Made by a program: the position numbers and the translations under genes. This document shows positions 1,244-50,796 of a stretch of 64,000 bases of DNA, one piece after another. The stretch is from positions 230,802 through 294,801 of the IMG/VR virus record IMGVR_UViG_3300047476_002078; one strand, 5' to 3'. This DNA is from a virus. A model generated the notes under the pieces. The model was not told where the DNA came from, did not search any database, and saw only the letters and a program-made list of their open reading frames with translations. Within the stretch, counting starts at the first letter, position 1. Every line of letters begins with the position of its first letter.

Positions 1244-1259
1244 AAAAATCCTCCGTAAA

Positions 1260-33471: not shown

Positions 33472-34461
33472 ATGATTGTTAATTGGGGAATCCCGTTATT
33501 CAAATCAGTATTAATAAATTTTGATTTTTCGTTCAATTCATTTAATTGTGATGGTAAGTTAGTAAAATATAACGGTAATTTAAGTTCTCTCAACGGAAAT
33601 ATTTTTGTATCTAAAGAAGATTTTTCCAGAATAGTGATTGATTTTTACAAGAGTTTATATCCTATTGCTTCAAACGATAAAATAAAAGATTTGTACTTAC
33701 TAATTTCTGATTTCATATCACTTGCTTTCCCAATACAGGGAGACATTCAAATTGATAAAAATTTAGTTTTAAATTTTTGGAACTCTCGATTATCAGAATC
33801 CGAAATAGAAAATATTATTCATAATTCAAAACCTCAATTTATTGATAAAGATAACCTACCATTTGAACATTATTTTGCAGACTACTTAGGAAAAAAAGAA
33901 AAATCTTTGCACTTTGATAAACTATTATCAAAATCTCAGGACTTGGGAACAAGTTTCATGCTTTTCATGCTTACTGTTTGCTTCCGTACAATTTTGGGTG
34001 GAGTATATACCGCACCTTTTATAAATGATAATAATCTGTCTCGTTTTTTCCCCCGATATAAAGGTATGCCAAACAAAGAGTTAATAAAAAATTTAAGTTT
34101 TATTCATGATGAAAAAATACCGTTTATTTATACCAACTATTTAGATAGCAGTAAAATTGTTGAATACATATTTGATAAATACGACCACTCCTTAATAAAA
34201 GAAATGTGGGTAAATATATTGTATGAAAGAATTCCAGAAGTAGTTTCCCCTTACGAGCCAAAACAATTTTTGGGGGATTTGTTTGATAATTTAAAAGATA
34301 TTGTTATTACAAAAAATTGGGAAAAATTTATTGATGATAAAACTTTAGGTCTTGAATGGGTTGTTTGTTTTAATAATTCTCCAGAGCTTTCAGTAAGATA
34401 CAAGAGATCATTTGTTAAATATTTTTCAAACCAAGATGACTATTCGGTTTTTGTATTATGA
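33472..34461 (+). CDS. SLYP-family protein 1 (unknown family, 329 aa)
   Basis: I do not recognise the family, but two more members lie in the window (34458 and 48531). Shared marks are a central VSKEDFSRIVIDFYKSLYP (pattern DF-x3-I-x2-[FY]-x2-SLYP), a following ISDF/ICD segment, a DYLGKKE (YGDY-like) block, and a C-terminal NWEKFIDDKTLGLEWVV that ends with a basic [RK]-x3-[FY] stretch. The protein is rich in F, Y, N and K, mostly helical, with no membrane segment or metal site. It overlaps the second member by 4 bp, and both converge on a pair of 2OG oxygenase genes. Confidence 0.65.
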   Translation: MIVNWGIPLFKSVLINFDFSFNSFNCDGKLVKYNGNLSSLNGNIFVSKEDFSRIVIDFYKSLYPIASNDKIKDLYLLISDFISLAFPIQGDIQIDKNLVLNFWNSRLSESEIENIIHNSKPQFIDKDNLPFEHYFADYLGKKEKSLHFDKLLSKSQDLGTSFMLFMLTVCFRTILGGVYTAPFINDNNLSRFFPRYKGMPNKELIKNLSFIHDEKIPFIYTNYLDSSKIVEYIFDKYDHSLIKEMWVNILYERIPEVVSPYEPKQFLGDLFDNLKDIVITKNWEKFIDDKTLGLEWVVCFNNSPELSVRYKRSFVKYFSNQDDYSVFVL

Positions 34462-35375
34462 ATTTGACAGAAAAAACAAAATTAAACATTTCTTTAAATA
34501 AAATAACTCTTTTTTGTGTTGATGAAAAATACATAACAAATGAAGGGGAAGTGTTTTCATTTGATGAGTTTATAAGATCAGAAAAGGAATATTTCGTCTC
34601 ACCTGAAGATTTCAGTATTATAATTTCAAAGTATTTAATATCCTTGTATCCTGACAAAAGTGTTGAAACTATTTTTGAGAAAATTTGTGATTATATCAAA
34701 ATAAACGGTTCTATATTTAATAGAGACTTTCTTAGCATTGATTTTAAATTCAAATATTATAATCCTGAAAAAATAGAAAATTTTGAACCTTCTTTTGAAT
34801 TTTTGTATGGTGATTACTTGGCAGGAAATATAAACAGTAAATTTATAGAAAAATGTAGAAAGCTTTGTTATGACCATTTTTTATATATGACTATAGGTTC
34901 TTTCAACGCCATATTTACATCTTCTTTTGGATTAAGAGATTCCGTTCCTGACGCTTTAGAAAATTTATTTGATTTTGAAAATTCAAAATCTGTTTTGGAT
35001 TTATTAAAAAAACCATATTTTGACATTCTTTGGGATATTAAAGTGCCTATTGAATTCGATGGTAAAGATTCTGAAACAACCTCTGAATATTTGTTAAAAA
35101 ATTTAGGTAAAGAAAAAATAAAAGAATTTTGGAATATATTACTATCCAAAAGAATCCCTGCTTATTTATACAGAAATTATGATAAAGACTTCACTAATAA
35201 AATGTTTAAAGAGAGATTGGATGCTATAGAAAGTCAAAATTTTGAACCTTTTATAAATAGCGAAACTGGTTTAATTTTTAGCGTTTTATATTCAAATGTT
35301 CCTTATTTCAGGAATTCTTATAACAGAGGTCTTATAACTTTCTTTAAGGAATCTGATTCAATTTGGCGGCTTTAG
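34458..35375 (+). CDS. SLYP-family protein 2 (unknown family, 305 aa)
   Basis: Paralogue of the upstream 329-residue protein: VSPEDFSIIISKYLISLYP, ICDYIKING, LYGDYLAG and C-terminal NFEPFINSETGLIFSVL correspond to the same blocks in the same order. Sequence identity outside the blocks is low, so duplication is old or selection is relaxed. Its 3' end overlaps the convergent 2OG-Fe(II) oxygenase gene by 32 bp. No function is known. A partner, substrate or inhibitor of the neighbouring oxygenases is one possibility from gene order only. Confidence 0.65.
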   Translation: MNLTEKTKLNISLNKITLFCVDEKYITNEGEVFSFDEFIRSEKEYFVSPEDFSIIISKYLISLYPDKSVETIFEKICDYIKINGSIFNRDFLSIDFKFKYYNPEKIENFEPSFEFLYGDYLAGNINSKFIEKCRKLCYDHFLYMTIGSFNAIFTSSFGLRDSVPDALENLFDFENSKSVLDLLKKPYFDILWDIKVPIEFDGKDSETTSEYLLKNLGKEKIKEFWNILLSKRIPAYLYRNYDKDFTNKMFKERLDAIESQNFEPFINSETGLIFSVLYSNVPYFRNSYNRGLITFFKESDSIWRL

Positions 35376-36003
35376 TAGAAAACATTACGTGAGGCTTATT
35401 CTTACTATGTAAGCTAGGGTCAACATACCCAAAGTGACACATTACTGTATATCTTTCTTTGTCACAAACCAATGGATTAACTTTGTGTTTAAATATGGGA
35501 TTAAGATTATTAACACAAACCAAAGTACCGTGTTGAGGCAGTATAGTATTAAGTGTAAATATTTTTTCAGAAGATTCTATTCCAACGCTCAAATATCCGC
35601 CGTCAGTTATAGTATATGTATCCTGTGTTAGATAAAGCATAGTTGTCATAAAAGAACCGTCAAGATAATCAGAGTGCCATGCCATACCTTCTCCATTTTT
35701 AAATTTATTGGACATTGGAAGACCTTGACTAAAATCTCCAAAATTTTTTATGAAAAAAGAAAAATACTCACTGGAGGATAAATAATTCCAGTAATAATGA
35801 AACAAAGAAGGTTGGGTATCTTTTTCCCAATGTAAAACCAAAGGGTCTTTCCAACCGTACTTTTCTTGATTAGCTTTTACAAAATTTTCTCCTCTAATTA
35901 TTTGTAGCAGGTCATCACAAAAATTTTTATCGACGGAAGAAATCACGTAACCATCTTTAAAAAATTGATTCAAATCAAAATGCGTATTATTAACTATTTC
36001 CAT
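35344..36003 (-). CDS. 2OG-Fe(II) oxygenase paralogue B
   Basis: A 219-residue member of the same family as 2777, 36006 and 50173. Iron ligands are H110 and D112 (AWHSDY) and H173 (FKHKV); R184 (ERYTV) is the likely 2-oxoglutarate anchor. FGDFSQ and PQHGTLV blocks are conserved. A longer C-tail of about 30 residues is unique. It lies 2 bp downstream of paralogue C and is co-transcribed with it. All catalytic residues are kept, so activity is expected; substrate unknown. Confidence 0.82.
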   Translation of the reverse strand: MEIVNNTHFDLNQFFKDGYVISSVDKNFCDDLLQIIRGENFVKANQEKYGWKDPLVLHWEKDTQPSLFHYYWNYLSSSEYFSFFIKNFGDFSQGLPMSNKFKNGEGMAWHSDYLDGSFMTTMLYLTQDTYTITDGGYLSVGIESSEKIFTLNTILPQHGTLVCVNNLNPIFKHKVNPLVCDKERYTVMCHFGYVDPSLHSKNKPHVMFSTKAAKLNQIP

Positions 36004-36005
36004 AA

Positions 36006-36536
36006 TCAGTATCCAGATTTACACATTAGAGAGTACCTTTTTAAAGGTAGCTTCATTTTTTCAACTTTATGAAAGAATAAAGGATTCCAATTCAATATCG
36101 AAACTAGAGTACCGTTTTCAGGCAGTATGTTTTGAATTTTATGGGCATTTTTTATAGAAAGACATCCGCCGAAAGACTCGTGCCAATTTTCATCACCTAA
36201 ATAAAGTATATGATTAATGGGAAAATTGTGTGAAGCATCATTATGCCACTCTAAACCGTCACCTTGGCGATAACTATGAACGCAGAACTGCCTTTGCGAG
36301 AAATCACCGTAAATCTGAGTAAAAGGCTTCTCATATTCATTTAACATGTTTATAAAAAATTCTTGAATACTTTCTGGAACTTGAAGAGTTAAAAGCGGTG
36401 CATTGCTATCGTTATATTTTTCATTTGTATCTTGAAAGTTAAGTTTGCTAATCACTTCTAAAATTTCGCAAGGCGTTTGTATTTTTTGATAAGTAACACC
36501 ATTTTCAAATAATTCTGTGAGTTTAATTTTTAACAT
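36006..36536 (-). CDS. 2OG-Fe(II) oxygenase paralogue C
   Basis: The shortest of the four, 176 residues, ending right after the RYSLMCKSGY block. Ligands are H98 and D100 (EWHNDA) and H156 (FFHKV); R167 is the 2-oxoglutarate candidate. YGDFSQ and PENGTLVS blocks match the others. It is the first gene of a two-gene minus operon whose start faces the ACCGTAAA-rich intergenic region at 36537-36708. It looks complete and catalytically competent. Confidence 0.82.
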   Translation of the reverse strand: MLKIKLTELFENGVTYQKIQTPCEILEVISKLNFQDTNEKYNDSNAPLLTLQVPESIQEFFINMLNEYEKPFTQIYGDFSQRQFCVHSYRQGDGLEWHNDASHNFPINHILYLGDENWHESFGGCLSIKNAHKIQNILPENGTLVSILNWNPLFFHKVEKMKLPLKRYSLMCKSGY

Positions 36537-36563
36537 ATTACATTATAGAAAATAATCAAAATG

Positions 36564-36619
36564 ACCGTAAAAAGCACCGTAATTTTTTTCTTGCTACCGT
36601 AAAGTTTTGTTACTATCAT
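36564..36619 (+). promoter_or_regulatory. Promoter with three ACCGTAA boxes
   Basis: Three direct ACCGTAA(A) boxes lie at 36564, 36576 and 36596, the first two 12 bp apart. The third overlaps the -35 of a good promoter: TTGCTA (36591-36596), 17 bp, TATCAT (36614-36619). It precedes the ssDNA-binding candidate gene by 89 bp, leaving a leader that includes a small CGTG/CACG hairpin (about 36655-36668). Confidence 0.6.
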
Positions 36620-36708
36620 TTGATACAGATTGAAAATGCTGGAGAACAGCTAAAACGTGATTTCACGATTCTTACTCAAATGACCTAAAAGTGTCGAAGG
36701 AGAAAAAA

Positions 36709-37359
36709 ATGAGTATGTCTGAAGAAGTTGGATTTGATGATGAAAGTGTACGGTCTTTGGATTTTGAAAAGTACAAAGGTACAAAAGGAACAACAGATCG
36801 TTTAGCTTTTGTTCACCTTAAAGAAATTCAAGGCAAACTACAACCTGTACTGAGAAAAGCTTATGTTCATTACATTGAAAATGTAGGCTATGTTCTTGCG
36901 AACGATTATACACGCTCTCGTTTCGGTGAGCCTACGCTTCGTCTTGTAACGATTGTAGGTCAATACCAAACAGACAAATTCGGAAAAATTAAACAGCCTT
37001 TCAATGAAAGCAGTTTAACTCTGAAGTTTTTTGTTCTTAGTGCAAAAAAATATGATGCTCTTAGAAAAGCACATCAAGAATTCCCTCTTGATAAACATGA
37101 CTTAATGGTAACTTGTATTGAAGATCAGTACCAACAATTAAACTTCCAATCCTGCAAGGAAGCCGCTTGGGCAATTAAACCAGAAATTAAAAAAGCTGTT
37201 TTAGCACAAGTGGAAAAACTCGCACCATATCTTGAAGGTCAATTAGGTCAGAATTTAACAGCCGATCAAATTAAAGAGAAGCTAGGTGAATCTTCTGAAG
37301 GCGGTATTGTTGCTGACGATACGTCAAGCAATGCTGACGACATTATTGCCGGACTGTAA
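36709..37359 (+). CDS. Candidate single-stranded DNA-binding protein
   Basis: ATG 36709 is chosen because AAGGAG (36697-36702) precedes it; an in-frame GTG at 36691 does not have this. The 216-residue product has a beta-rich N-terminal body with aromatic and basic residues (KYKGTKGTTDRLAFVHLKEI and ANDYTRSRFGEP) and a glycine/serine/aspartate tail ending ADDIIAGL. A flexible acidic C-tail is typical of ssDNA-binding proteins that recruit partners. It has its own strong promoter and terminator, and the next genes are RuvC- and RecA-like. No OB-fold signature is certain, so this is inference. Confidence 0.45.
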   Translation: MSMSEEVGFDDESVRSLDFEKYKGTKGTTDRLAFVHLKEIQGKLQPVLRKAYVHYIENVGYVLANDYTRSRFGEPTLRLVTIVGQYQTDKFGKIKQPFNESSLTLKFFVLSAKKYDALRKAHQEFPLDKHDLMVTCIEDQYQQLNFQSCKEAAWAIKPEIKKAVLAQVEKLAPYLEGQLGQNLTADQIKEKLGESSEGGIVADDTSSNADDIIAGL

Positions 37360-37424
37360 TTTAGGAATCTAGTTTACAGTTTTACGGGGAAAACAAGGAA
37401 GTTGACTCGTAGTGCGAGAAAGGT

Positions 37425-37473
37425 GGAGGGTCTAGTGACAAGGAAGTGTATCACAAAGACCCTCCTTCTTTTT
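37425..37473 (+). terminator. Rho-independent terminator
   Basis: GGAGGGTCT (37425-37433) pairs with AGACCCTCC (37457-37465); GTGA and TCAC extend the stem inside. TTCTTTTT follows. It closes the single-gene unit of the ssDNA-binding candidate, so that gene is probably transcribed separately and at a high level. Confidence 0.85.
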
Positions 37474-37490
37474 AGAACAAAGGAATGTTC

Positions 37491-38144
37491 ATGCGTGTTT
37501 TGGGCATTGACCCTTCACTTACAAATTTAGGATATGTTGTCTTAGAAGATGGTAAAGTTTTAGAAAAAGGAAGATTTCAGACTAATCCTGAAGATGGTTT
37601 AAATGTTCAAAGGTATTTAATCCAAGCAAACAGGGTTTCTGAAATAATTGAAAAGTACGAAATAAAATACGTTTCTTCTGAATCACCGATATTCCAAGAT
37701 TTCAATACAGAAGTTCTATACGGTCTTCAAAGTTTTTTACATTTAGTGTATTGGGTACACGCTGTAAATGTAGTCATATTATCTCCACTCCAAGTTAAAA
37801 GTTACGCTTTACCGAATTTCAAAGGAAAGATTTTTAAATCTGATATGGTAAAAGCTGCAAGAAAAGATATGGGTCTTCCTGATAACTCACGTCTTGCTAA
37901 TGATGTAGCTGACGCTTATTGGATTTCAAAAATTGGATTACGTTGGTGGATGTTTTATGAAAAACTTATTACAGAAAAAGATTTAACCGTAAAAGAGAAT
38001 CAAATGTTTTTGCACAGTCACACATTTACTCGTGGCAAAAAACAAGGTCAAACAGAAAAGAAGGGTATTGTCTTCCGTAAAAATGAAATTTACTATATTT
38101 ATGAAGAATTAAAAAAACCGATATTTTTATTTAAGGGGAAATAA
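37491..38144 (+). CDS. RuvC-like Holliday junction resolvase
   Basis: The ATG at 37491 has AGGA at proper distance; the ATG at 37485 is too close. The RNase H-fold protein of about 217 residues starts RVLGIDPSLTNLGYVV (first catalytic Asp), has VSSESPIF (catalytic Glu) and ends its core with LANDVADAYWISKIG (catalytic Asp pair). Family members cut four-way junctions during recombination or before packaging. It is followed 3 bp later by recA. The longer C-terminal part after residue 155 is not typical and may bind DNA or a partner. Confidence 0.82.
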   Translation: MRVLGIDPSLTNLGYVVLEDGKVLEKGRFQTNPEDGLNVQRYLIQANRVSEIIEKYEIKYVSSESPIFQDFNTEVLYGLQSFLHLVYWVHAVNVVILSPLQVKSYALPNFKGKIFKSDMVKAARKDMGLPDNSRLANDVADAYWISKIGLRWWMFYEKLITEKDLTVKENQMFLHSHTFTRGKKQGQTEKKGIVFRKNEIYYIYEELKKPIFLFKGK

Positions 38145-38147
38145 TTT

Positions 38148-39404
38148 ATGGCTGTTAAAAAAGGTAAAGAGACTCAGAAAAAGGTTTCTATGTCTGAGCT
38201 TGTAAAAAAACTCGCTGCTAAAAGCGATGATAAAGATTTGTTCTATAGCAAAGAAAGGCACAGAGAAATTGAATGTATTGATACAGGTTCAATTATTATC
38301 AATAAAGTCATCGGTCTTGACGGTATTCCAAAAGGCAGGATAACTGAAATTTTCGGAATGGAGTCAAGTGGTAAATCAACACTTGTACAATCGTTAGCAA
38401 TTCAATGTTTAAAAAACGGAGGAAAAGTTCTCTATTTAGATTATGAGCAAGCCTTCGATACTGAATATGCTAGAAAGCAGGGATTAGATATTGATGACCC
38501 TGACACATTTATTTTAGCTCAACCTAAAACATTTGAAGAAGGCTTTGCAATCTGCCGTGAATTCTTGGATTGCGTGGAAGGTCTTGATCTAATTATTATT
38601 GACTCTGTAGCTGCTATGACACCATCAAAGATTCTTAATGCTGAGATTGAAAAAGAGCTACAAATTGGTTTAATGGCTCGCCACATGGCTCAATTTTGTG
38701 CTGAGATGACAAAAACTATATCTAAGACAAATACAGCTATGGTTGTAGTAAACCAAGTTCGTAGTCGTATTAAAACAAATATGTACGATGCTGGACCTGA
38801 TACAGATACAACAGGCGGTAAAGCTCTCAAGTTTTACGCCTCTTTAAGACTGGAACTACGTCATAGAAAAATTGAAACTATAAGCACTACTAATGACATT
38901 GATGGGACACCTGAAGACAAACCTGTTGGAATGTTATGTCAAGTAATTAACCGTAAAAACAAAGTTGCAAACCCATACCGTAAAGCTGAATTTGCGATTA
39001 GATTCGGAGAAGGTATTGATAACGTCAGAAGTGTAATAGATGTTTCTGAAAATCTAGGTCTGATTAAAAAAGCTGGGGCTTGGTTCAACTTCCGTAAAGA
39101 TATTCCATTTGATTTAGATGAGGACTTGATGACTCAAGAAGGGAAAATGCAAGGACTTGAAACAGTCAGAGAATATTTAGTTAAGCACACAAAAGTTTTG
39201 GCGACGTTAGTGGACAACATTTATGTTGAAAAAGATGATGAAGTCGAAAGAGAGTCTAAAAAAGATGATCTATCGACAACAGGAGTAGAATCTGGAAACT
39301 TCGATGCTATCGAACTTAATGATGAAGAAGAAGCTGCTATAGCAGAAGCTCAATCTAAAGTTAAGAAAAGTAAAAAGAAAGCAAAAGAAGTTGAAATAGA
39401 GTGA
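38148..39404 (+). CDS. RecA-family recombinase
   Basis: A 418-residue RecA-like ATPase. Core: GLDGIPKGRITEIFGMESSGKST (Walker A near residue 66-74), VLYLDYEQAFD (catalytic Glu region), LIIIDSVAAM (Walker B), VVVNQVRSRI (L2-side motif). The C-terminal 70 residues are acidic and lysine-rich (DDEVERESKKDD, then KKSKKKAKEVEIE). It forms filaments on single-stranded DNA for strand exchange. It lies with RuvC-like, Mre11/Rad50-like and Cas4-like genes, a full recombination block. It is more like bacterial RecA than T4 UvsX, but the phage origin could mean either. Confidence 0.93.
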   Translation: MAVKKGKETQKKVSMSELVKKLAAKSDDKDLFYSKERHREIECIDTGSIIINKVIGLDGIPKGRITEIFGMESSGKSTLVQSLAIQCLKNGGKVLYLDYEQAFDTEYARKQGLDIDDPDTFILAQPKTFEEGFAICREFLDCVEGLDLIIIDSVAAMTPSKILNAEIEKELQIGLMARHMAQFCAEMTKTISKTNTAMVVVNQVRSRIKTNMYDAGPDTDTTGGKALKFYASLRLELRHRKIETISTTNDIDGTPEDKPVGMLCQVINRKNKVANPYRKAEFAIRFGEGIDNVRSVIDVSENLGLIKKAGAWFNFRKDIPFDLDEDLMTQEGKMQGLETVREYLVKHTKVLATLVDNIYVEKDDEVERESKKDDLSTTGVESGNFDAIELNDEEEAAIAEAQSKVKKSKKKAKEVEIE

Positions 39405-39412
39405 GGTAGATT

Positions 39413-40576
39413 TTGAAGGACGTTCTTAAAGTATCGGTTAAAAATATACAAGCTATTGAAGAAGCATCTATTGAAGTGGAAGGGTTTACTGGAATTGTCG
39501 GACGTTCCAATTCTGGTAAATCTGCTTTAATTAGGGGTTTATTTGCAGCTTTAACAAATAAGTCTCCTAAAGGCATTTTTCGATATAACACTAAAGAAAG
39601 CCAAGTAAAACTAGATGATGAATCTCGAAATATACATATTGAATGGAGAAAAGGCGACAGCATTAACATGTACAATGTTAATGGAAAAGAGCATACAAAA
39701 GTAGGTAAGGAGCCTCCTCCAGAAATAGCAGATTGGGGATTTAAAACCATTAAAGTTAATGATGAAACTCTTGATGTTCAATTTGCAAGACAACATCAAT
39801 ATCTTTTTCTACTAGATAAATCAGGTGGATTTGTAGCCGAGTTTATATCAAAAATAACTAAAGCTGATATATTAACAGGGGCTTTAAAAGATTGTGAGTC
39901 TGATTTACGTAAAGCTAATGAGTCAATCAAGCACAACGATAAGGAAGTAGAAAAATTAAATCAAGATTTATCAAAATTTGACTCTTTAGATTATTATCAT
40001 GAAAGAGTTAAAAATCTTATTGAAGCTAAGTCAAACTTATTGAAACAAAACGCAGAAATCAAACAAATAGAAGAATGGTGCAAGCAAAAAGAAGTCTTTG
40101 TTTCAGAGTATAAGAAGTTAGGAGAAACCCCAGAAATTATAGAATTTCAATTTGATCTATCAGAATTAAAAAAAATTAAAGATTGGTCAGATGAAGTAGA
40201 AGAACAAAAAAATAAACTAATCTCTGCAAGAAAAGTTGATGACTGTCAAATACCAGAAGTAAGTTTCGATATTGATATATTAAAAGTTTTTGAAGAATAC
40301 TTCCAATTATTAAAAAAATCAAATTCAGACATTCCTTCTATACCAAAAGCGGAATTCAATCTTGATGAAATAAAAGAAATACAAAATTTGATAGAAGAGA
40401 AAGATTCTTTAGATTTTGACAAAGATCAAATTGAAGAAGATTTAGAAAATGCTTGTTCTAAAATAATAGAACTAGAAAAACAAATGAAATCTTTAGAGAA
40501 ACAATTAGGTAAGTGTCCACTGTGCAAGCACGATTTTAAAGGCATTTCGCACGACCATTTGGAGTTTAACGCATGA
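39413..40576 (+). CDS. SbcC/Rad50-like N-terminal half, ends at zinc hook
   Basis: TTG start with GAGGT upstream; no ATG fits better. The 387 residues begin with KVSVKNIQAIEEASIEVEGF and a P-loop VGRSNSGKSALIRG, the N-terminal ATPase lobe of SbcC/Rad50. A long coiled coil follows, ending in GKCPLCKHDF, a CxxC zinc hook. The protein then stops within 20 residues, so it has no return coil and no signature, Walker B or D-loop motifs. These are found on a separate ORF at 42665. The gene overlaps the SbcD/Mre11-like gene by 4 bp. It should act with it in end processing. Confidence 0.82.
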   Translation: MKDVLKVSVKNIQAIEEASIEVEGFTGIVGRSNSGKSALIRGLFAALTNKSPKGIFRYNTKESQVKLDDESRNIHIEWRKGDSINMYNVNGKEHTKVGKEPPPEIADWGFKTIKVNDETLDVQFARQHQYLFLLDKSGGFVAEFISKITKADILTGALKDCESDLRKANESIKHNDKEVEKLNQDLSKFDSLDYYHERVKNLIEAKSNLLKQNAEIKQIEEWCKQKEVFVSEYKKLGETPEIIEFQFDLSELKKIKDWSDEVEEQKNKLISARKVDDCQIPEVSFDIDILKVFEEYFQLLKKSNSDIPSIPKAEFNLDEIKEIQNLIEEKDSLDFDKDQIEEDLENACSKIIELEKQMKSLEKQLGKCPLCKHDFKGISHDHLEFNA

Positions 40577-41526
40577 AATTTAAAGCGATAACTATAGGAG
40601 ATGTACACTTAGCAGATAAAACTCCAGCATCACGCTTAGATAACTATCGTGAAACTCTTTTTGAAGAATTGATGATGGCTAGACAAGTAGCCTTGGAAGA
40701 AAAAGCTGACGCTGTTCTAATAACAGGAGATATTTTTGATGTTAAATCACCTAAACTCAATTCTCATTACTTGGTATCAAAAGCTATATCGCTTTTTTCC
40801 TCATTTCCTTGTCCTGTTTACAGCATCATCGGAAACCATGATATTACTGCTAATAGGATTGATTCTCTTGATAAACAGCCGTTAGCTGTTCTTTTCAATT
40901 CCGGTGCTGTGAAAAGATTAGATAGAGAAACAATTAATGGTGTAGATATTGTTGGAATTCATTTTAACGAAAACAATTCTTATGAAACTTTGTCCCAAAA
41001 GAAGCAAGACGGAAAACCTTTAATTGCTGTATGTCACGTTCTAGCGTCTCCCACAGGAGGAGACATGTTCGGTGAACCTATATTCTCTTATAAAACTTTA
41101 GCATCTAGCGATACAGAAGTAGATGTTTATGTTTTCGGGCATTATCATCACGATCAAGGAATTCAAAAAATTGGAAAAAAATCATTTATTAACATAGGTT
41201 CATTAGCTAGAGGTGCTTTAAGTAAAGAAAATATAGATAGACAAGTTAAAGTTGGAAAAGTTGTATGGGATGGTAAAAAATTTGAATGTTCTGAAATCCC
41301 ATTACCTGTTAAGCCCGGAAGTGAAATTTTCAATATTGAAAAGAAACAAGAGCTTGAACACAGAGAAACAGAAATTGAAAAATTTGTATCCACATTAAAT
41401 AAAACTGACTTATTTGAAAACATCTCCACGCTAGAAGAAACTATAAAAGAAATGCGTCTTGATTCCGCTATCCGAATCCGTGTTACGGAATATTTGAATA
41501 ATAGAGGGGCTGGGATAAACGTATGA
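40573..41526 (+). CDS. SbcD/Mre11-like nuclease
   Basis: A 317-residue metallophosphatase. Motifs: TIGDVHLAD (D-x-H), ITGDIFDVKS (GD), SIIGNHDIT (GNHD), VCHVLAS and VFGHYHHDQG (GHxH). Together these bind two metal ions. The family is the nuclease subunit of the Mre11-Rad50 complex, trimming DNA ends and hairpins. Its gene lies between the Rad50-like N-half and the Cas4-like nuclease, with 4-bp overlaps on both sides. Confidence 0.93.
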   Translation: MKFKAITIGDVHLADKTPASRLDNYRETLFEELMMARQVALEEKADAVLITGDIFDVKSPKLNSHYLVSKAISLFSSFPCPVYSIIGNHDITANRIDSLDKQPLAVLFNSGAVKRLDRETINGVDIVGIHFNENNSYETLSQKKQDGKPLIAVCHVLASPTGGDMFGEPIFSYKTLASSDTEVDVYVFGHYHHDQGIQKIGKKSFINIGSLARGALSKENIDRQVKVGKVVWDGKKFECSEIPLPVKPGSEIFNIEKKQELEHRETEIEKFVSTLNKTDLFENISTLEETIKEMRLDSAIRIRVTEYLNNRGAGINV

Positions 41527-42347: not shown

Positions 42348-42373
42348 CTTTACCGTAAATTGTAATTTAAAAT
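42344..42373 (+). promoter_or_regulatory. Predicted promoter with TTTACCGTAAA box
   Basis: TTGACT (42344-42349), 18-bp spacer, TAAAAT (42368-42373). TTTACCGTAAA covers 42349-42359. It overlaps the stop of the Cas4-like gene and precedes the coiled-coil gene at 42384, so the Rad50 C-half would be separately promoted from the N-half. Confidence 0.5.
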
Positions 42374-42383
42374 GGAGATCATT

Positions 42384-43321: not shown

Positions 43322-43749
43322 AAGAACCTACTAAAATAAAAGAAAAAATAAGACAATTAAAGTTTGCTTATATTAAGCAGTTTTATAAAGAACATCTGTC
43401 TCGTGAACCTAAAAATTGCGTTTATAACAGAACAGTTATATTTGCAGGAACAAAAGAACACGCTACGAGAGTTTGTAATTATTTTTCCGATAACAATGTT
43501 TATCAAATTTGTGATAGCTCTGAATGTGCTGGAAACTGTAACGCTTTTGTTTCTAAATTAAAAAAGAAAGATATTAAAGCTTCATTAGAAAATGATATTA
43601 AAAATAATCCTATGAAGTATCCAGAAATTATGGCTTTAAATTGGGTATTAGATAAAAACGTAGAAGATACTTATTTAACCAATTTAAAATATTATTTTTA
43701 TTCAAAACTGTTCTCAATTAAAGAATTTATCAAAAGGTGGATTAAATGA
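43318..43749 (+). CDS. Hypothetical cysteine-containing protein, 143 aa
   Basis: Not recognised. The chain is basic, with CVYNRTVIFAGTKEHATRVC and CDSSECAGNC in the first two thirds; the latter could be a small metal or Fe-S site. The last 35 residues are aromatic and basic (YYFYSKLFSIKEFIKRW). It overlaps both neighbours by 4 bp, so it belongs to the same operon as the Rad50 C-half. No catalytic motif is evident. Confidence 0.55.
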   Translation: MKEPTKIKEKIRQLKFAYIKQFYKEHLSREPKNCVYNRTVIFAGTKEHATRVCNYFSDNNVYQICDSSECAGNCNAFVSKLKKKDIKASLENDIKNNPMKYPEIMALNWVLDKNVEDTYLTNLKYYFYSKLFSIKEFIKRWIK

Positions 43750-44321
43750 ACCGTCACCAACGTAGAGCTTATGAAAAAGTAAATAAAATAGGCTCGGCTC
43801 AAAATGATATTAACTCTGCCAACGCAATGTCATCTAATCTAAAAGCTTTAATTGAAGACTTTAGAAATATTCAATCACAGTTAGTTAAAATGGTAGAGTT
43901 TAATAAATCTCTATTCAAAAGTGTTCAGATTGTTAGAGAAACTCTTGAGAGGAAAGGTTTTCTAACTATTGATGATATTAAAGACACCGAAAATTTATAT
44001 AGAGTCAATATAGAAAACAGAGATAAAAAAATTAAAGAGGTTTTGTCATCTGACATGACAGATGACGAGAAGATAGAAATGTGTCTTCAGGATGCTGAGA
44101 CATATAAGCCCGGATATGAAAAATTAAATCTAAATCCTGTTAGAGACTTGAACGTGGCTCCAAACGTAGTAAATGATTACCTAATTCATTCTAAAGAAAT
44201 GACTGGATTAAATTATAAGCAATATGCTTTATTTTTAGGTGTTCCTGAAGTGATGCTTGTAAAACCTTTGCCAGAGCCAAAAAATAACAAGGTCGGGAAA
44301 GATGAAATTCAAGGAGCCTAA
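43746..44321 (+). CDS. Hypothetical protein, 191 aa
   Basis: Not recognised. It starts with a basic NRHQRRAYEK stretch and has a helical middle (LKALIEDFRNIQSQLVKMVEFNK). A loop-rich second half reads NLNPVRDLNVAPNVVND, then KEMTGLNYKQYALFLGVPEV. The last part resembles the helix content of small DNA-binding domains, but no clear helix-turn-helix is seen. It overlaps the next gene by 20 bp. Confidence 0.55.
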   Translation: MNRHQRRAYEKVNKIGSAQNDINSANAMSSNLKALIEDFRNIQSQLVKMVEFNKSLFKSVQIVRETLERKGFLTIDDIKDTENLYRVNIENRDKKIKEVLSSDMTDDEKIEMCLQDAETYKPGYEKLNLNPVRDLNVAPNVVNDYLIHSKEMTGLNYKQYALFLGVPEVMLVKPLPEPKNNKVGKDEIQGA

Positions 44322-44517
44322 TCTTTTTGAATTTATTCTATATGATCTTGAAAATTTTGAAATGAAAAGTTTTCGAGAAAAGATTTCAATTGCGGTTCAT
44401 TTTTCAGAAGAAAATGATAACTGGGTTGATTTTTCTTTTTCTCAATCAGAAGATTTAGTAAATGAGTTTAAAAAATCATTAAAAGGTGAATCAAATGTCG
44501 TCTCATTCAGAAGATAA
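44302..44517 (+). CDS. Hypothetical small protein, 71 aa
   Basis: Not recognised. Acidic and aromatic, with a strand-like centre (EKISIAVHFSEENDNWVDFSFSQ). AAGG lies near the start, and the ORF begins inside the end of the previous gene, a coupling common in this operon. The end overlaps the next gene by 23 bp. Confidence 0.45.
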   Translation: MKFKEPNLFEFILYDLENFEMKSFREKISIAVHFSEENDNWVDFSFSQSEDLVNEFKKSLKGESNVVSFRR

Positions 44518-44755
44518 ATACAATTTGGTTATAGTTGATAAAAGACCTGAAGTAGAAAACTTTACTTATTGTGGTATAACAAAAGAAGATAGAAAACTAA
44601 TTAAAGCACAAATGTTGGAATATACCGAAAAATATTTGCATTTTGATTATGATGAAGGTGAAGTAATTGTTGTCAAGGATGTGATACATTCAATAGTCTT
44701 TACGGATTATATTAGTTCGGAAGAGATGGAAATTGGAACAGTAGAAGATGAGTAA
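44495..44755 (+). CDS. Hypothetical small acidic protein, 86 aa
   Basis: ATG 44495 is preferred over GTG 44486 because AAAGGTG precedes it. The protein is acidic (HFDYDEGEVIVVKD and EEMEIGTVEDE) with alternating strand- and helix-like parts. One cysteine only. Not recognised. Acidic small phage proteins can be DNA mimics or inhibitors of host enzymes, but nothing here shows that directly. Confidence 0.5.
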   Translation: MSSHSEDKYNLVIVDKRPEVENFTYCGITKEDRKLIKAQMLEYTEKYLHFDYDEGEVIVVKDVIHSIVFTDYISSEEMEIGTVEDE

Positions 44756-45020
44756 TTTAGATTTTCAATCAATAAAAACCAGAGTTTTTAGTCTTGTTTC
44801 AGATTTGGAATATGTTGATGATGTATTAAAAAGCAAAAGTGGTTATGAAACAAATTTATGGGCTATAAGAGAGCAGAAAAAACTAGAAACAAATATCTCA
44901 GAAGATATGCAAAAAGCGTTACAAGAACGAGAGAATGTTTTGTTAAAACAAATAAATAATTGTGATAAAATGCTAGAAGCTACTAGAGAAAAAATTTTAA
45001 GAGCTTTAGGAAAAATGTGA
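44748..45020 (+). CDS. Small coiled-coil protein, 90 aa
   Basis: Not recognised. Largely helical with heptad-like spacing (LLKQINNCDKMLEATREKILRAL). It overlaps its upstream neighbour by 8 bp and shares 4 bp with the downstream GTG start. Probably part of the same small-gene operon. Confidence 0.5.
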   Translation: MSNLDFQSIKTRVFSLVSDLEYVDDVLKSKSGYETNLWAIREQKKLETNISEDMQKALQERENVLLKQINNCDKMLEATREKILRALGKM

Positions 45021-45232
45021 ATAAACAAGATATAATTGAACACATTAGAGAATTGCCTGATTGTGAGGAGTGTAAAAAGCGTCCCACTATGTATCTGGCT
45101 TTTGATGGAGTGATTCTAAGCGGTTGTGATACTCACATGGTAGAGCTTGGTGATATGCTTTATCAATCTCATTACTATAATAAAAATTATGTCAATTACG
45201 ATTTAAAAGATCGAGGAAGCAAAGCTAACTAA
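45017..45232 (+). CDS. Small cysteine protein, 71 aa
   Basis: GTG start within the previous stop, with AGGA upstream. The sequence has CEECKKRPTMYLAFDG then GCDTH: CxxC plus a later C and H at 20-residue distance, a plausible one-zinc knuckle. Not otherwise recognised. It abuts the next ORF (1-bp overlap). Confidence 0.5.
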   Translation: MNKQDIIEHIRELPDCEECKKRPTMYLAFDGVILSGCDTHMVELGDMLYQSHYYNKNYVNYDLKDRGSKAN

Positions 45233-45594
45233 TGATTATAACAATTCTATCGAGAGATAAAATTTCTCAAAATATATTCAAAGAAAATATACTAGATATA
45301 ACTAATTTTGTTACCTTGGGAACGCATAGTAATCAAGACAGTAATACATTAAAAGAAAGAATAAATTTCGCTTTAGGTCAAAATAAAGACGTTTTAATTT
45401 TCCACGCATTAAAAAGATCATCTTTTGCTATTTCAAAAGACTGGAATCCTGAACCTGTTGCAGACTATCAAAAAGAGCTATACGAAATATCAGACCTTTT
45501 AATTTACACGCCTACCTTGTTTCAAAGCAGTTACGGTAAAACTTTAACCGTAATTAAAGGTGATTTATCACTATTGAAATTAAAAACGCCATAA
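45232..45594 (+). CDS. Hypothetical protein, 120 aa
   Basis: Not recognised. Alternating strands and helices (MIITILSRDKIS, NKDVLIFHALKRSSFAIS, LYEISDLLIYTPTLF) suggest a small alpha/beta fold, perhaps nucleotide-binding like, but no P-loop exists. Two ACCGTAA-type boxes (45531-45540 and 45547-45553) fall in its last codons, upstream of the promoter at 45596. Confidence 0.5.
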   Translation: MIITILSRDKISQNIFKENILDITNFVTLGTHSNQDSNTLKERINFALGQNKDVLIFHALKRSSFAISKDWNPEPVADYQKELYEISDLLIYTPTLFQSSYGKTLTVIKGDLSLLKLKTP

Positions 45595-45595
45595 C

Positions 45596-45624
45596 TTGAC
45601 ACCTTTCTAAGCAAATACTACGAT
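45596..45624 (+). promoter_or_regulatory. Consensus-like sigma-70 promoter
   Basis: A perfect TTGACA (45596-45601), 17-bp spacer, TACGAT (45619-45624). It lies 28 bp upstream of a small gene with GGAGG (45641-45645) and would drive that gene and clpX. It is the best host-type promoter I see in the window and has no ACCGTAAA box in the spacer, though two lie just upstream. Confidence 0.75.
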
Positions 45625-45652
45625 TTTCATCTCACATAACGGAGGTATCTTT

Positions 45653-45829
45653 ATGGAAGACCTATATGAGGTAAAAATTGAAGTCACTGTTCCAAAAATT
45701 CTTAAAATTAAAGCTAAAGATGAGAACGAGGCTTTAGAAAAAGTACAGCAATTGTTAGAAGAGAAAAACATAGAGCGTACAAGAATTCAAGAAATGACTT
45801 GGAACAAAATAGAGGAAAAAAGTGAATAA
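45653..45829 (+). CDS. Small protein, 58 aa, upstream of clpX
   Basis: GGAGG at 45641-45645 and a strong promoter support this ORF. The product pattern [29 protein letters not shown] is strand, strand, then helix starting with an A-K-D-E-N-E-A motif, common in small ferredoxin-like phage proteins. It overlaps the clpX GTG by 8 bp. A role as a ClpX partner is possible from position only. Confidence 0.6.
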
Positions 45830-47003
45830 GAACGCACAATCTTCTTGCTCTTTTTGTGGAAGCAAAACCCAATTGCTTGGGCTTTCTCCACAAATACTTA
45901 TATGTAAAAACTGTAGTGAGAAAATTTCCGGCTACTTTAAAGAAAATAATCAAGAAGAGGTCACATTCAATTTTGATCTGACTCCCCTTCAAATAAAAAC
46001 ACATTTAGATGATTTTGTTATTGGTCAAGATCAAGCCAAGATAGAGTTAGCTACGGCAGTCTATTACCATTACAAAAGAATCAATGATAAAGATTCAGAA
46101 AATCTGGTAGAAAAAAGCAATATTCTTCTTTTGGGTCCGACTGGAGTGGGAAAGACTGCTCTATGTAAAGCATTAGCTAAATGCTTAAATGTGCCTTTTG
46201 CAATAGCGGATGCAACTAATCTTACTCAAGCAGGATACGTAGGTGATGATGTCGAAAATATACTTTATTACTTACTTCAAAATGCGGATGGAAGTGTAGC
46301 AAAAGCTGAAAAGGGTATAGTTTATATTGATGAAATAGACAAAATTGCGTCCAAAACTCAAAACGTGAGCCTTACAAGAGATGTTAGTGGTGAGGGAGTT
46401 CAACAAGCTTTACTTAAAATAATCGAAGGAACAATTGCAAAAATACCTCCAAAAGGAGGGAGAAAGCATCCAGACCAAGAATGTATTCAAATTAACACTG
46501 AAAATATTTTGTTTATAGTTGGAGGAGCTTTTGTAGGATTAACAGATATTATTGAGAGACGAACAAATAAAAAACGTATAGGTCTATCTAGTCAAACATT
46601 TGACGATTTTGAAACTTTAAAAGATGTAACTCAAGAAGATTTAATATCTTATGGTTTTATTCCAGAATTTATCGGAAGATTGCCAAATATTGCAACGCTT
46701 CAAAATTTGACAGTGAGTGATTTAGTAAGCATAATCACCAAACCAAAAAATTGTATTTTATCGCAGTATAAAAAACAGTTCAACTACAATGGAGTTGAAT
46801 TAGAGATTACAGGCGAAGCTTTGAATAAAATCGCTGAAAGAGCCTTATCAAAGAATACAGGAGCAAGAGGTTTAAGGGCAGAGTTTGAGGTAGTTTTAAA
46901 AGATTATTTGTATGAAGCTCCAAATAAGACATTTGAAAAAGTAATAGTTGGAGATAATTTAGAAGTATGTGTAAAAAAAGAATATAAAGAAGCAGCGAAT
47001 TAA
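45822..47003 (+). CDS. clpX: ClpX unfoldase, ATP-dependent Clp ATP-binding subunit
   Basis: GTG start with GAGG ahead. The 393-residue protein has the N-terminal zinc-binding domain (C9, C12, C28, C31), Walker [10 protein letters not shown], pore loop GYVGDD, Walker [11 protein letters not shown] and the GGRKHPD loop that handles ssrA-type tails. An RIGLS stretch sits where the IGF loop docks on ClpP, so ClpP binding may be retained. No ClpP gene is in the window; it could team with host ClpP or work alone as a remodeler. A phage-borne ClpX is rare; lon is also present. Confidence 0.95.
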
Positions 47004-47014
47004 ACGGGGGATTA

Positions 47015-47503
47015 ATGCTACATAACGTGATGATGAATCTAGTGGTTATAAAAGAAGATAACCCCGGAAAATATTCAATTTTGCTTCATGATCCAGATGG
47101 ACTCGGATGGAGACTCCCAAGTGGAGACGTTTTAGAAGTAGAGGATGAGGATGAACTTCCAGAACCTAACTCAATTTATTCTATTTCGTGTTTTCATCAC
47201 TTACAAAGTTTATGTAATTTAAGTCCTGAAGTTATAGAAGATTTTGATATTTTACCTTATTCCCACATACGGTCTTTTAGCCCAGAATTAGAAGTCCCAG
47301 AGTTAATCCTTGTTTACTGGGCGATTATAGATTCTGAAAAATTAGATTTAGTTTATGAACAGTTAAAATCCAAAAACGGTAATGCTCGATTTTTCCCTTA
47401 TATGGATGAAGCTGGAAACTGCACCTTACCTGAATTAAATATAATTGAAGATGAGCAGTCTATTATCGGTGTCATGAATAATTTTTATAAAAAGGTAAAT
47501 TAA
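47015..47503 (+). CDS. Hypothetical protein, 162 aa, possibly degenerate Nudix fold
   Basis: A GGGGGA ribosome site precedes the ATG. Not firmly recognised. NLVVIKEDNPGKYSILLHDPDGLGWRLPSGD looks like the first strands of a Nudix hydrolase up to the LPGG turn, and the segment after it has Nudix-like spacing. However, the REUXEE catalytic glutamates are absent. If Nudix-related, it would be inactive as a hydrolase. It is followed at 1 bp by the NFU1-like gene. Confidence 0.4.
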   Translation: MLHNVMMNLVVIKEDNPGKYSILLHDPDGLGWRLPSGDVLEVEDEDELPEPNSIYSISCFHHLQSLCNLSPEVIEDFDILPYSHIRSFSPELEVPELILVYWAIIDSEKLDLVYEQLKSKNGNARFFPYMDEAGNCTLPELNIIEDEQSIIGVMNNFYKKVN

Positions 47504-48063
47504 TGCAACAAGGTATTGAAAAAGATTTAGAAGTTTCCTTAGAATGGACTCCTAATCCCAAGACTTTAAAATTAGTTGTAAATAAAACACTTTTAAGCAA
47601 AGGTATCAGTAATTCAAAAAGTTTACAAGAAGCTTCCGAAAAATCACCTTTGGCAGAAAAATTATTTTCTATTGATGGTGTTAAAGGTGTAATGATTGCA
47701 AAAGATTTTATTACTGTAACAATTGAAGGTTACGAAGTTTATGAAATTTACGACAGAATTAAATCTTGTATTATAGAAGTCATTAACTCAGGTTCCGAAT
47801 TAGTTTACGCATTTTTTAATAAAAAGGAACTTACTGGCATTGAACTTGAGATTGATACTATTTTACAAACTCATATCAAACCTGCGGTAGCAAAAGATGG
47901 AGGAGACATTAATTTTGAGAGCTTTGAAGACGGTGTGGTATATGTATCTCTTCACGGTTCTTGCAACGGTTGTCCTAGCTCTAAAATAACTTTAAAAAAC
48001 GGAGTCGAAACTCTTTTAAAAGAAAAAATACTCTCTGTTAAAGAAGTCGTATCTATAAGCTAA
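47503..48063 (+). CDS. NFU1-type Fe-S cluster scaffold/carrier
   Basis: A 186-residue two-domain protein. The N-terminal domain (about 10-90) has LEWTPNPKTLKLVVNK and SPLAEKLFSIDGVKGVMIAKDFITV, the NFU N-domain pattern. The C-terminal NifU-like domain has IKPAVAKDGGDINFESFEDG and HGSCNGCPSS with the cluster-binding C154-x2-C157. The family hands 4Fe-4S clusters to target enzymes. A phage gene of this type is unusual. Nearby candidates for delivery are the Cas4-like nuclease; 2OG oxygenases and NrdB need iron but not clusters. One-base overlap with the previous gene. Confidence 0.9.
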   Translation: MQQGIEKDLEVSLEWTPNPKTLKLVVNKTLLSKGISNSKSLQEASEKSPLAEKLFSIDGVKGVMIAKDFITVTIEGYEVYEIYDRIKSCIIEVINSGSELVYAFFNKKELTGIELEIDTILQTHIKPAVAKDGGDINFESFEDGVVYVSLHGSCNGCPSSKITLKNGVETLLKEKILSVKEVVSIS

Positions 48064-48567
48064 ATGGCAAAATTAGAATTAGATCAAGTAGCTTTGTTAG
48101 ATTTTAAAGAAATCATTCCTAATCTTTGTTTGCAATTAAAAACAAAAAGAAATGGTAAGTTATTATCTATTTTAAATTCAATAAAAATAGACGGGCATAA
48201 GTTTAAGTTTGTTTATAATGAAAACTCTTTTTATAAAATTTATGTTAAGTGCCCCAAGTGTAAAGAGCCTAAATTAAAACTCTACAAATTAGATGATGTT
48301 TATTGGTGTAGTTCCTGCCATAGAGTTGTTAAGAAGAAAAATAAAAGACGTTCAACAGTTTACTCCAAGTATGTCAGACCTTTAAAACTACTAAAAGAAA
48401 TCGAAGATGCTCTATTTACCGATAATATAACTGAAGGCAAGAGACGAAAATTGGAAATAAAAGCTGAAAAATTAAGAAAAATCATACCGATATATATCTA
48501 TGAACTAAGAGAAAAAGTCTTAAAAAGTATTCAGAAAGATAAAGATATTGGATTATCTGACAAATAA
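48064..48567 (+). CDS. Zinc-ribbon hypothetical protein, 167 aa
   Basis: Starts directly after the NFU1-like stop. CPKCKEPKLKLYKLDDVYWC then SSCH gives a CxxC...CxxC zinc ribbon near residues 60-80. The C-terminal half is basic and helical (EGKRRKLEIKAEKLRK). Such ribbons bind nucleic acid or join protein complexes. It overlaps the convergent gene at 48531 by 37 bp. No specific family is recognised. Confidence 0.6.
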   Translation: MAKLELDQVALLDFKEIIPNLCLQLKTKRNGKLLSILNSIKIDGHKFKFVYNENSFYKIYVKCPKCKEPKLKLYKLDDVYWCSSCHRVVKKKNKRRSTVYSKYVRPLKLLKEIEDALFTDNITEGKRRKLEIKAEKLRKIIPIYIYELREKVLKSIQKDKDIGLSDK

Positions 48568-49610
48568 TTTAATAGGAAAAAGTTAATTCTTCTTCTATGT
48601 GACGACATCTGCATCACACTTTCAATCCATTCTTTATTATCAATAAGAGACTCAAAATCTCTATCCTTTATAATCCTTAATTTATTTTTAATTTGCTTAT
48701 CTCGAATGAGATTTTTAATACAGTCGTTTATGGTACTATTGTTTATATTTAAAAATTCGATATTGTATTTAGGTAAACTTCCGCTTAAAGGCATTGCTAA
48801 AATAATATTTCCGCTTATCCCACGATTAATATCTGATTCAAAAGTTTTAACATACAGTTCCGAAATGTGGTCTATTCCGTAAATTTCAATTATTTTATAA
48901 ACATCTTCATCTGTGTCACAGTTAAATACTAATGGGTCAAAGATAAAAGGGTAAGATTTTTTAAACATTTCTCTCAGAGATTCTTTTTCTGATTTAAAAA
49001 GTTTTTCGTGTGGATAAGTGATGAAAAAGTTTTTAATTTCTCTCAGCATTTCTTTCATTTCTTTTAACGCTATTTTTTCGATGTCTTTTATCAAAGATTG
49101 ATAAGTTTTGGGTTTTTTAAAAAACTTATAGTCGCCGTAACGAATTTCAAAAGGAAGAAATTCTACCATCTCTTCCTTAATTAAATTATTGTCTGCTATC
49201 TGGTAAATAACCTCAAATTCTTGCTTACTGAATTCTATGTTGATATTTTCAATTAAGAATAGTTTATCAAATGTTAAGTCACATATTTTGTAAATTATTT
49301 CCTTATTTTGGTTAGGGTAAAGGCTTTTAAAGAAAGAAACGATTAAGTATTTAAAGTCTTTTATTTCGCAATATATGACAGACGGTCTATCACTATGATA
49401 GCAAAAAAAATCATTAAAAAATAACTCAAGACTCGAATTATAATTGCTTGATATTAGCGTATGTAGATTTGAAGACTTTGAGATATATCTTGAATTTTGA
49501 TCTAATGTTATTTTAGTTGATAGTATTATTGCATCTGAGAATAATAAATGTTGTTTACTAAAATTTGTATCCAAATCTAAATATTTGTTTTTAAATAATT
49601 GAAAAATCAT
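48531..49610 (-). CDS. SLYP-family protein 3 (unknown family, 359 aa)
   Basis: Third member of the family at 33472 and 34458. The same blocks appear in order: EIKDFKYLIVSFFKSLYP, IYKICDLTFDKL, RYGDYKFF and the C-terminal DFESLIDNKEWIESVM followed by RRRINFFLLNYL. It is the most divergent and longest copy. It overlaps the Thg1-like gene by 4 bp and the unit lies beside the fourth 2OG oxygenase gene (divergent). The repeated association with 2OG oxygenases in two separate places is the main clue to a shared process. Confidence 0.65.
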   Translation of the reverse strand: MIFQLFKNKYLDLDTNFSKQHLLFSDAIILSTKITLDQNSRYISKSSNLHTLISSNYNSSLELFFNDFFCYHSDRPSVIYCEIKDFKYLIVSFFKSLYPNQNKEIIYKICDLTFDKLFLIENINIEFSKQEFEVIYQIADNNLIKEEMVEFLPFEIRYGDYKFFKKPKTYQSLIKDIEKIALKEMKEMLREIKNFFITYPHEKLFKSEKESLREMFKKSYPFIFDPLVFNCDTDEDVYKIIEIYGIDHISELYVKTFESDINRGISGNIILAMPLSGSLPKYNIEFLNINNSTINDCIKNLIRDKQIKNKLRIIKDRDFESLIDNKEWIESVMQMSSHRRRINFFLLNYLSDNPISLSF

Positions 49611-50143
49611 GAATCGTACTTATCCAATTTTGGATACCTTGGTAGTAGCATAGTTAAGAACTCTTTATCTTCTTTAAAATTAGGGGACTTGATTGCGACA
49701 AACTTTTTATATCTAAGAATAGTGAATCCTAAATTATCTTTTGAAAAAGACTGTCTTCCTAAAAAATAATTATAAACTTCTACAGAATCGGGAATATTAA
49801 AACATTTAGCTTTTACATAAAAATTTTCTAGTCCTTCTGAACACAAAAAGCTTGTGAGGTATGAAGAACTTAAAGAAGAGATTGCTTGGATATTTCCGTC
49901 TAGCCACTGTTGAGTGTTAGGCTTCCAAAAGTCGCAGAATAAAAAACTAACTTCATTTCCTTGAGTAAAACCCATCTGAAGGTTTGGAACAAAATTAGCA
50001 AAATTAACTAGAGAATTGAGATGTTTTTCAAGATCGACGTTTGGGTAAATTTTCATTCTTAATATAGCGTAACATCTTCTAGCCAAATAAAAATCTGATC
50101 TACCTTCGTACTGCTCTTTCATTCTTTTATTCAAATCTTTCAT
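49607..50143 (-). CDS. Degenerate Thg1-like (tRNA-His guanylyltransferase family) protein
   Basis: A 178-residue protein whose order of motifs follows Thg1/TLP 3'-5' polymerases: DLNKRMKEQYE at the start (DLGxRMKxYE), ILRMKIYPN (family RxDGxxF), FTQGNEVSFLF (family YxQSDExSxLF), NIQAISSLSSSYLTSFL (GxxQKxxSxxAAxxTAxF), and CFNIPDSVEVYNYFLGRQ (RxxxxPxxxEVxNYFxWRQ). The metal-binding aspartates are replaced: K for D in the first, N for D in the second; the following glutamate stays. Catalysis as in normal Thg1 is therefore doubtful. It may bind tRNA or nucleotide without polymerising. Confidence 0.6.
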   Translation of the reverse strand: MKDLNKRMKEQYEGRSDFYLARRCYAILRMKIYPNVDLEKHLNSLVNFANFVPNLQMGFTQGNEVSFLFCDFWKPNTQQWLDGNIQAISSLSSSYLTSFLCSEGLENFYVKAKCFNIPDSVEVYNYFLGRQSFSKDNLGFTILRYKKFVAIKSPNFKEDKEFLTMLLPRYPKLDKYDS

Positions 50144-50151
50144 ATAAACCT

Positions 50152-50166
50152 TTTACGGTATATAAT
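50152..50166 (+). promoter_or_regulatory. TTTACGGTA box joined to TATAAT, probable leaderless promoter
   Basis: TTTACGGTATA (50152-50162) runs into TATAAT (50161-50166), which is only 6 bp before the ATG at 50173. No ribosome site exists for that ATG, so transcription would start at the codon. The same 29-bp gap separates it from the minus-strand gene start at 50143, whose own ribosome site (AAAAGG on the minus strand) lies in the box. Confidence 0.5.
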
Positions 50167-50172
50167 TGTAGC

Positions 50173-50796
50173 ATGGTATTAGATTTACATTCACTGTTTT
50201 CTAAGGGATTTGCTGTAACAAAAGTAGATAACGTAGATTATTTGTTACATAGCATTAAAAATGATGTTTTCGACGATCATTCTGGCATATATTCAAATAA
50301 CGCTCCGCCAAAAGTAGTCGATTGGTCTTACACAGAAAAAGTTCCAGACCTTGTTAAAAATTTTTGGAGCAATTTAGCGTTAGATTCTTATTTTAATCTG
50401 TTTCGTTTAAATTATGGTGATTTCACCCATCTAAAAATGAGTGCTCACAAATATGAAAAGAACCATGAATTGCTTTGGCATCACGATTTTCATGAGGCTT
50501 GCCCAATAAATAATATTTTATATTTATCTGATACTGAAGTTTCAGAAGACCATGGCTCTTTACTTAAAATAGGAAAGTGGAAAATAGATAGAAACGGTTG
50601 GGGTAAGTCCCATGAAGTTGAAATTTTAGACACTATAATTCCATATCACGGTACTTTGGTAACTTTAATGAACTTTAATCCTATCTTTTGTCATTCAGTA
50701 ACGCCTTTTTTAGGAAATTATGGAAGGTATTCGTTAATTTGTAGAATGGGTTACACGGAAAATATAGAAAACAGTAAGATTTCAAAATTCATGTAA
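50173..50796 (+). CDS. 2OG-Fe(II) oxygenase paralogue D
   Basis: A 207-residue member of the family at 2777, 35344 and 36006, closest to paralogue A: both share KIGKWKIDRNGWG/ELGKWNLDNNGWG inserts and a NKIANLF/SKISKFM end. Ligands are H103 and D105 (WHHDF) and H174 (FCHSV); R185 anchors 2-oxoglutarate. It is the only copy on the plus strand, divergent from the Thg1-like/SLYP pair. The likely leaderless start would couple it tightly to its promoter. It overlaps the convergent cupin-like gene by 15 bp. Confidence 0.82.
   Translation: MVLDLHSLFSKGFAVTKVDNVDYLLHSIKNDVFDDHSGIYSNNAPPKVVDWSYTEKVPDLVKNFWSNLALDSYFNLFRLNYGDFTHLKMSAHKYEKNHELLWHHDFHEACPINNILYLSDTEVSEDHGSLLKIGKWKIDRNGWGKSHEVEILDTIIPYHGTLVTLMNFNPIFCHSVTPFLGNYGRYSLICRMGYTENIENSKISKFM

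Follow-up and report, generated by a model that had tools for sequence, protein, structure and literature searches.

An undescribed protein family associated with 2OG-Fe(II) oxygenase genes in a 355,874-bp phage record

Phages repeatedly turn out to carry 2OG-Fe(II) oxygenase genes in large sets. The T4-like cyanophage S-SCSM1 carries 24 such genes (PMC9602691), many of them diverged PF13640/PF13661 paralogues of unknown function that occur together with cell-wall and glycan genes, and in pelagiphages the 2OG-Fe(II) oxygenase genes adjoin a "partner" gene, which encodes a ferrochelatase (PMC9599517). The phage described here, for whose record of 355,874 bp (G000) no close relatives were found, resembles S-SCSM1 in its many diverged paralogues of the same Pfam families and in its glycan genes, and resembles the pelagiphages in that its oxygenases are recurrently adjacent to a second gene family. 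However, the partner here belongs to an undescribed family, SLYP. Such an adjoining family would offer a handle on the targets of the oxygenases, because interaction partners are directly testable.

All seven ORFs of the original prediction were confirmed in position and strand in the window, that is, the whole stretch of 64,000 nucleotides analyzed (G000:C1:230802-294801). The coordinates of these and of other features are collected in Table 1.

Table 1. Coordinates of SLYP genes, oxygenase genes and other loci discussed in the text; plain numbers are window positions.
Feature	Coordinates	Strand	Remarks
SLYP member 1, 329 aa	33472..34461	+	Homologous to member 2; GC 27.4%
SLYP member 2, 305 aa	34458..35375	+	Homologous to member 1; GC 25.4%
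SLYP member 3, 359 aa	48531..49610	-	Homology by BLASTP, Smith-Waterman and HMM-HMM; GC 25.9%
Probable SLYP member, 292-aa ORF	G000:208488-209366 (L028:6489-7367)		Outside the window; profile search
Probable SLYP member, 249-aa ORF	G000:31083-31832 (L027:1084-1833)		Outside the window; profile search
2OG-Fe(II) oxygenase	2777..3436	-	Next to a cluster of nucleotide-sugar and glycosyltransferase genes; no SLYP gene adjacent
2OG-Fe(II) oxygenase	35344..36003	-	HxD...H...R intact; 3' end shares 32 bp with that of SLYP member 2
2OG-Fe(II) oxygenase	36006..36536	-	HxD...H...R intact; upstream of the 35344 gene, same direction
2OG-Fe(II) oxygenase	50173..50796	+	HxD...H...R intact; 29-bp gap to the divergent Thg1-like/SLYP pair
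Degenerate oxygenase	G000:207848-208504		Neither metal-binding His nor the 2OG-binding Arg kept
Oxygenase array	L027:4904-7642		Four paralogues; three share a direction, the fourth is divergent
Thg1-like protein	49607..50143	-	Stop overlapped by 4 bp by the start of SLYP member 3
NifU-like (CxxC) gene	47503-48063	+	Two genes upstream of the SLYP/Thg1-like/oxygenase locus; possibly iron supply
Collagen-like open frame	L050:9432-17873	+	2814 codons, to the record end
Collagen-like open frame	L051:2-889	+	296 more codons, at the other record end
Radical-SAM locus	L014:5026-11928 (L014 = G000:168500-180500)	-	Two tandem oxygenases, PHROG 20737 protein, three radical-SAM genes

The three window proteins had been grouped into one family on account of shared sequence blocks, and both the blocks and the homology held up. 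The blocks DFxxxI..SLYP, IxD, GDY/ADY and [ND][FW]ExxI occur in the same order in them. Members 1 and 2, a tandem pair in which the start of the second gene overlaps the stop of the first by 4 bp, are clear homologues (27% over 307 aa, BLASTP E 7e-16). Member 3 matched member 1 in BLASTP (E 2e-4) and in Smith-Waterman alignment (z 7.5; 0/500 shuffles), and HMM-HMM comparison aligned it over 215 columns with an E value of 1.1e-4 and a probability of 56%. With the composition correction of HMMER on, a two-sequence profile failed to separate member 3 from shuffles; with the correction off, it scored 35.0 bits, which none of 997 composition-matched shuffles reached (maximum 23.8). Judged from these alignments, member 3 is a genuine, if distant, homologue.

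Two further members were first spotted while the surroundings of the genome's other oxygenase genes were being read. Because this route is biased, we made a less biased test with a profile of members 1 and 2 only (composition correction off), which was searched against ORFs with a minimum length of 130 aa, drawn from the window and 13 further stretches (284 kb in all, 80% of the genome); eight of these 13 had been picked without regard to whether they contained oxygenases. Outside the training pair, the three top-scoring ORFs were member 3, the 292-aa ORF and the 249-aa ORF. The 292-aa ORF scored 25.3 bits, reached by 0/990 composition-matched shuffles, and the 249-aa ORF 13.7 bits, reached by 1/976; the latter also aligned with member 3 alone at z 6.5 (0/500 shuffles), and the N-termini MNHIFNKCYLQI, MFHIVNDCYLDL and MIFQLFKNKYLDL agree. 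In leave-one-out profiles the two ORFs scored 22.6 and 19.7, compared with 22.4 and 18.4 for the best of 1000 shuffles. Since these scores barely exceed those of the best shuffle, membership of the two ORFs is probable rather than certain. On these comparisons, the SLYP family appears to have at least five members at four loci, two of them outside the window. The three proteins and four oxygenases of the original prediction were thus all real and the count incomplete, the oxygenases being part of a family of 13. When 166 genes encoding 180 aa or more are ranked by GC content, the SLYP genes take five of the six lowest places (25-27%, against a median of 33%). A 158-aa ORF beside the oxygenases of L014, considered as a sixth member, was rejected (z at most 1.2) and belongs to PHROG 20737.

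The earlier remark that no known family could be recognized was borne out. The SLYP proteins gave no match above threshold in Pfam, PHROGs or PADLOC, and the three window members likewise gave none in NCBIfam; with no match among the PADLOC profiles, a defence role is without support. Matches to Stealth_CR4, a DNA primase, DUF6734 and a tape-measure protein were all below threshold and confined to a single member each, and were rejected. No SLYP homologues were found in IMG/VR, INPHARED, GTDB or PLSDB by searches of limited sensitivity to distant relatives, which included tblastn against phages with four of the SLYP proteins and two of the oxygenases as queries. Nor did 10 large phage records yield a SLYP relative when searched with profiles. 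By these searches SLYP is an undescribed, phage-lineage-specific family of paralogues. Hydrophobic residues, Asp, Glu and Pro make up most of its conserved positions, and neither His nor Cys is conserved, which argues against the proteins being enzymes; having no conserved Cys/His/charged constellation, they are predicted to be non-catalytic. Structure prediction and fold comparison had been proposed as a way to place the family. Two AlphaFold runs on three-row alignments gave pLDDT values of 57 and 45, and this low-confidence modelling suggests a largely helical fold. Comparison of the pLDDT-57 model with viral and PDB libraries found no fold match, the model being too poor for a fair test.

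A profile built from eight of the oxygenases identified 13 family members at eight loci in the genome. The HxD...H metal triad and the 2OG-binding Arg are kept in 12 of the 13 paralogues, including all four in the window, and Pfam assigned PF13640/PF13661 to 12 of them with E values up to 0.1. The best solved relatives of the profile in the PDB were the PKHD-type enzymes Tpa1 and OGFOD1 (5e-6 to 4e-5), matched over 185 positions that include the metal and 2OG ligands. Unlike Tpa1 and OGFOD1, the phage oxygenases are stand-alone proteins of about 176-249 aa with no second domain. By profile similarity the family is most like the PKHD-type prolyl hydroxylases, and prolyl hydroxylation by its members is a prediction. 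At the sensitivity used, searches of phage and genome collections detected no relative of the oxygenases tested. The oxygenase profile matched the S-SCSM1 genome at one place (1.3e-3), and no SLYP relative was found there; relative to the S-SCSM1 set, the 13 oxygenases are, by profile comparison, a subfamily of their own.

The repeated physical linkage of SLYP and oxygenase genes, on which the original prediction had laid weight, proved to be beyond chance. An oxygenase gene lies 0 bp from the tandem pair, 562 bp from member 3, 0 bp from the 292-aa member and 3070 bp from the 249-aa member. Random placement of four loci gave P = 0.0013 for all four lying within 3070 bp and P = 0.0015 for three lying within 562 bp, in a test that covers one genome and is partly post hoc. 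The SLYP family is associated with one oxygenase family (A9), the 249-aa member only loosely, with several genes between it and the array of four oxygenases. At one of the loci outside the window, the gene of the 292-aa member has a 17-bp overlap with the stop of an oxygenase gene that runs in the same direction, and this additional copy and its neighbour form an apparent operon.

We favor, with a probability of roughly 0.4, the reading that SLYP proteins are non-catalytic accessory partners of the phage's 13-member PKHD/prolyl-hydroxylase-like oxygenase set. They would be largely helical adaptor, substrate-presenting or inhibitory partners; a SLYP protein would select or hold the substrate for its oxygenase, and the target that the oxygenase hydroxylates would be a glycan or a protein of the host or virion. 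In favor of this reading are the profile ranking of the three further members, the linkage, the overlapping same-strand pair, the low GC content common to the five genes, the match to PKHD-type enzymes, the glycan genes near some oxygenase loci and the lack of conserved His or Cys. The analysis shows the family, the association and the intact oxygenase active sites; both the partner role and the identity of the substrate we infer. A more specific version, in which the five SLYP proteins would serve as dedicated specificity factors in a phage-encoded system of several enzymes that hydroxylates proteins or glycans, with pairs that differ in target and with the one dead oxygenase serving as a binding module, is doubtful.

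The main rival, nearly as likely as the accessory-partner reading, is neutral co-residence, in which the two families expanded independently into the same accessory insertion spots of a large genome under little constraint and share no process. The orientations at both window loci are in its favor: as had been described earlier, SLYP and oxygenase genes are convergent at 35.3 kb, and the unit of SLYP and Thg1-like genes is divergent from the oxygenase at 50.1 kb. Judging by orientation, the window SLYP genes are not co-transcribed with their oxygenases. The only co-directional, overlapping pair is that of the 292-aa member, and its oxygenase is the degenerate one, which counts against a tight functional link. 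The GC content of the SLYP genes (25-27%) is set apart from that of the oxygenase genes (mostly 30-34%), so the two did not arrive as one cassette. Furthermore, the SLYP-adjacent oxygenases form no clade in a tree in which most forks are weak, and there is thus no sign that the two families were duplicated together; a recognizable SLYP gene is absent at four of the eight oxygenase loci, which likewise counts against a tight link. On the other hand, co-residence has to account for the finding that every one of the four SLYP loci is close to an oxygenase locus, of which the genome has only eight (P about 0.001), and for the overlapping same-strand pair. Should the association be one of position alone, the SLYP genes would still exemplify orphan genes of extremely high AT content that have expanded rapidly in an isolated lineage of giant phages.

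Degenerate neighbours, an oxygenase and the Thg1-like protein, are also in keeping with co-residence. The Thg1-like protein resembles Thg1 of Xanthomonas phage XacN1 in matching PHROG 4717 (E 9e-12). It differs in that, when the two are aligned, the DGKAFH block is missing, N replaces the metal-ligand D of SDE, and the C-terminal segment is deleted. Both metal-binding Asp residues of Thg1 (in the DG..FH block and in SDE) are consequently lost, and the protein is probably not an active 3'-5' polymerase. The suggestion of tRNA modification, at which this gene hinted, is not supported: without the catalytic residues, tRNA 3'-5' editing is unlikely as a common theme.

Three of the eight oxygenase loci have glycan genes in their vicinity. 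These comprise RmlA/RmlD-like and GT4-like genes at window positions 380-2399 and in the adjoining upstream stretch, GT8, GT17-like, GT2-like and GT9 genes in L027, and a methyltransferase gene and GT-like genes in L028. On the favored reading, the oxygenase and SLYP genes would form a hydroxylase modification gene set, possibly one for glycan modification too. A different view of the same loci takes the SLYP proteins as highly diverged glycan-synthesis enzymes, for example glycosyltransferase-like, that act with adjacent glycosyltransferases and sugar-hydroxylating oxygenases. The gene of the 249-aa member has a 4-bp overlap with the GT8 gene, and the GT17-like and GT2-like genes come next; the 292-aa member has its match to DUF6734 (8.5e-4; 19.2 bits, below the curated cut-off of 27, and in this one SLYP member only), and one gene of a glycan cluster shares the low GC content of the SLYP genes. 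However, we consider this unlikely, as the SLYP proteins have no conserved catalytic constellation such as DxD, none of the five matches a glycosyltransferase profile, and no glycosyltransferase gene is found within several genes of either window SLYP locus.

The substrate of PKHD-type relatives is a prolyl residue in a protein. The SLYP proteins could then be substrates themselves, as host-takeover or virion proteins hydroxylated by the neighbouring oxygenase at the conserved Pro of the SLYP motif or at a conserved Asp. The profile match to PKHD-type enzymes and the conservation of the SLYP-motif Pro in four of the five members speak for this reading, although the fifth member lacks this Pro and the SLYP proteins show no similarity to virion proteins; it is somewhat less probable still than the glycan-enzyme reading.

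The same genome holds a giant collagen-like open frame, which probably continues from one record end to the other, and two large, divergent glycosyltransferase genes lie just upstream of it. These features raise a further possibility, that the oxygenases hydroxylate this collagen-like fibre and that the SLYP proteins are its chaperones. Composition largely refutes it. The repeats are of the form G-V-Q-G-[E/A/T]-T, and roughly 830 triplets contain just 9 Pro and 2 Lys; at so low a Pro and Lys content, prolyl or lysyl hydroxylation is not credible as a main role, and the protein was rejected as a hydroxylase substrate. Neither an oxygenase nor a SLYP gene lies near the frame in the stretches read, and we regard the collagen reading as very improbable and the least favored of all. 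Glycosylation of Thr in the collagen-like protein by the two adjacent glycosyltransferases is possible.

At the L014 locus, two of the three radical-SAM genes have SPASM-like matches, and a 185-aa protein ending ...CHCSCHSSCHSSCHSSCHSSRARR is also encoded there. This stretch is possibly a phage-encoded locus for a radical-SAM-modified (RiPP-like) peptide.
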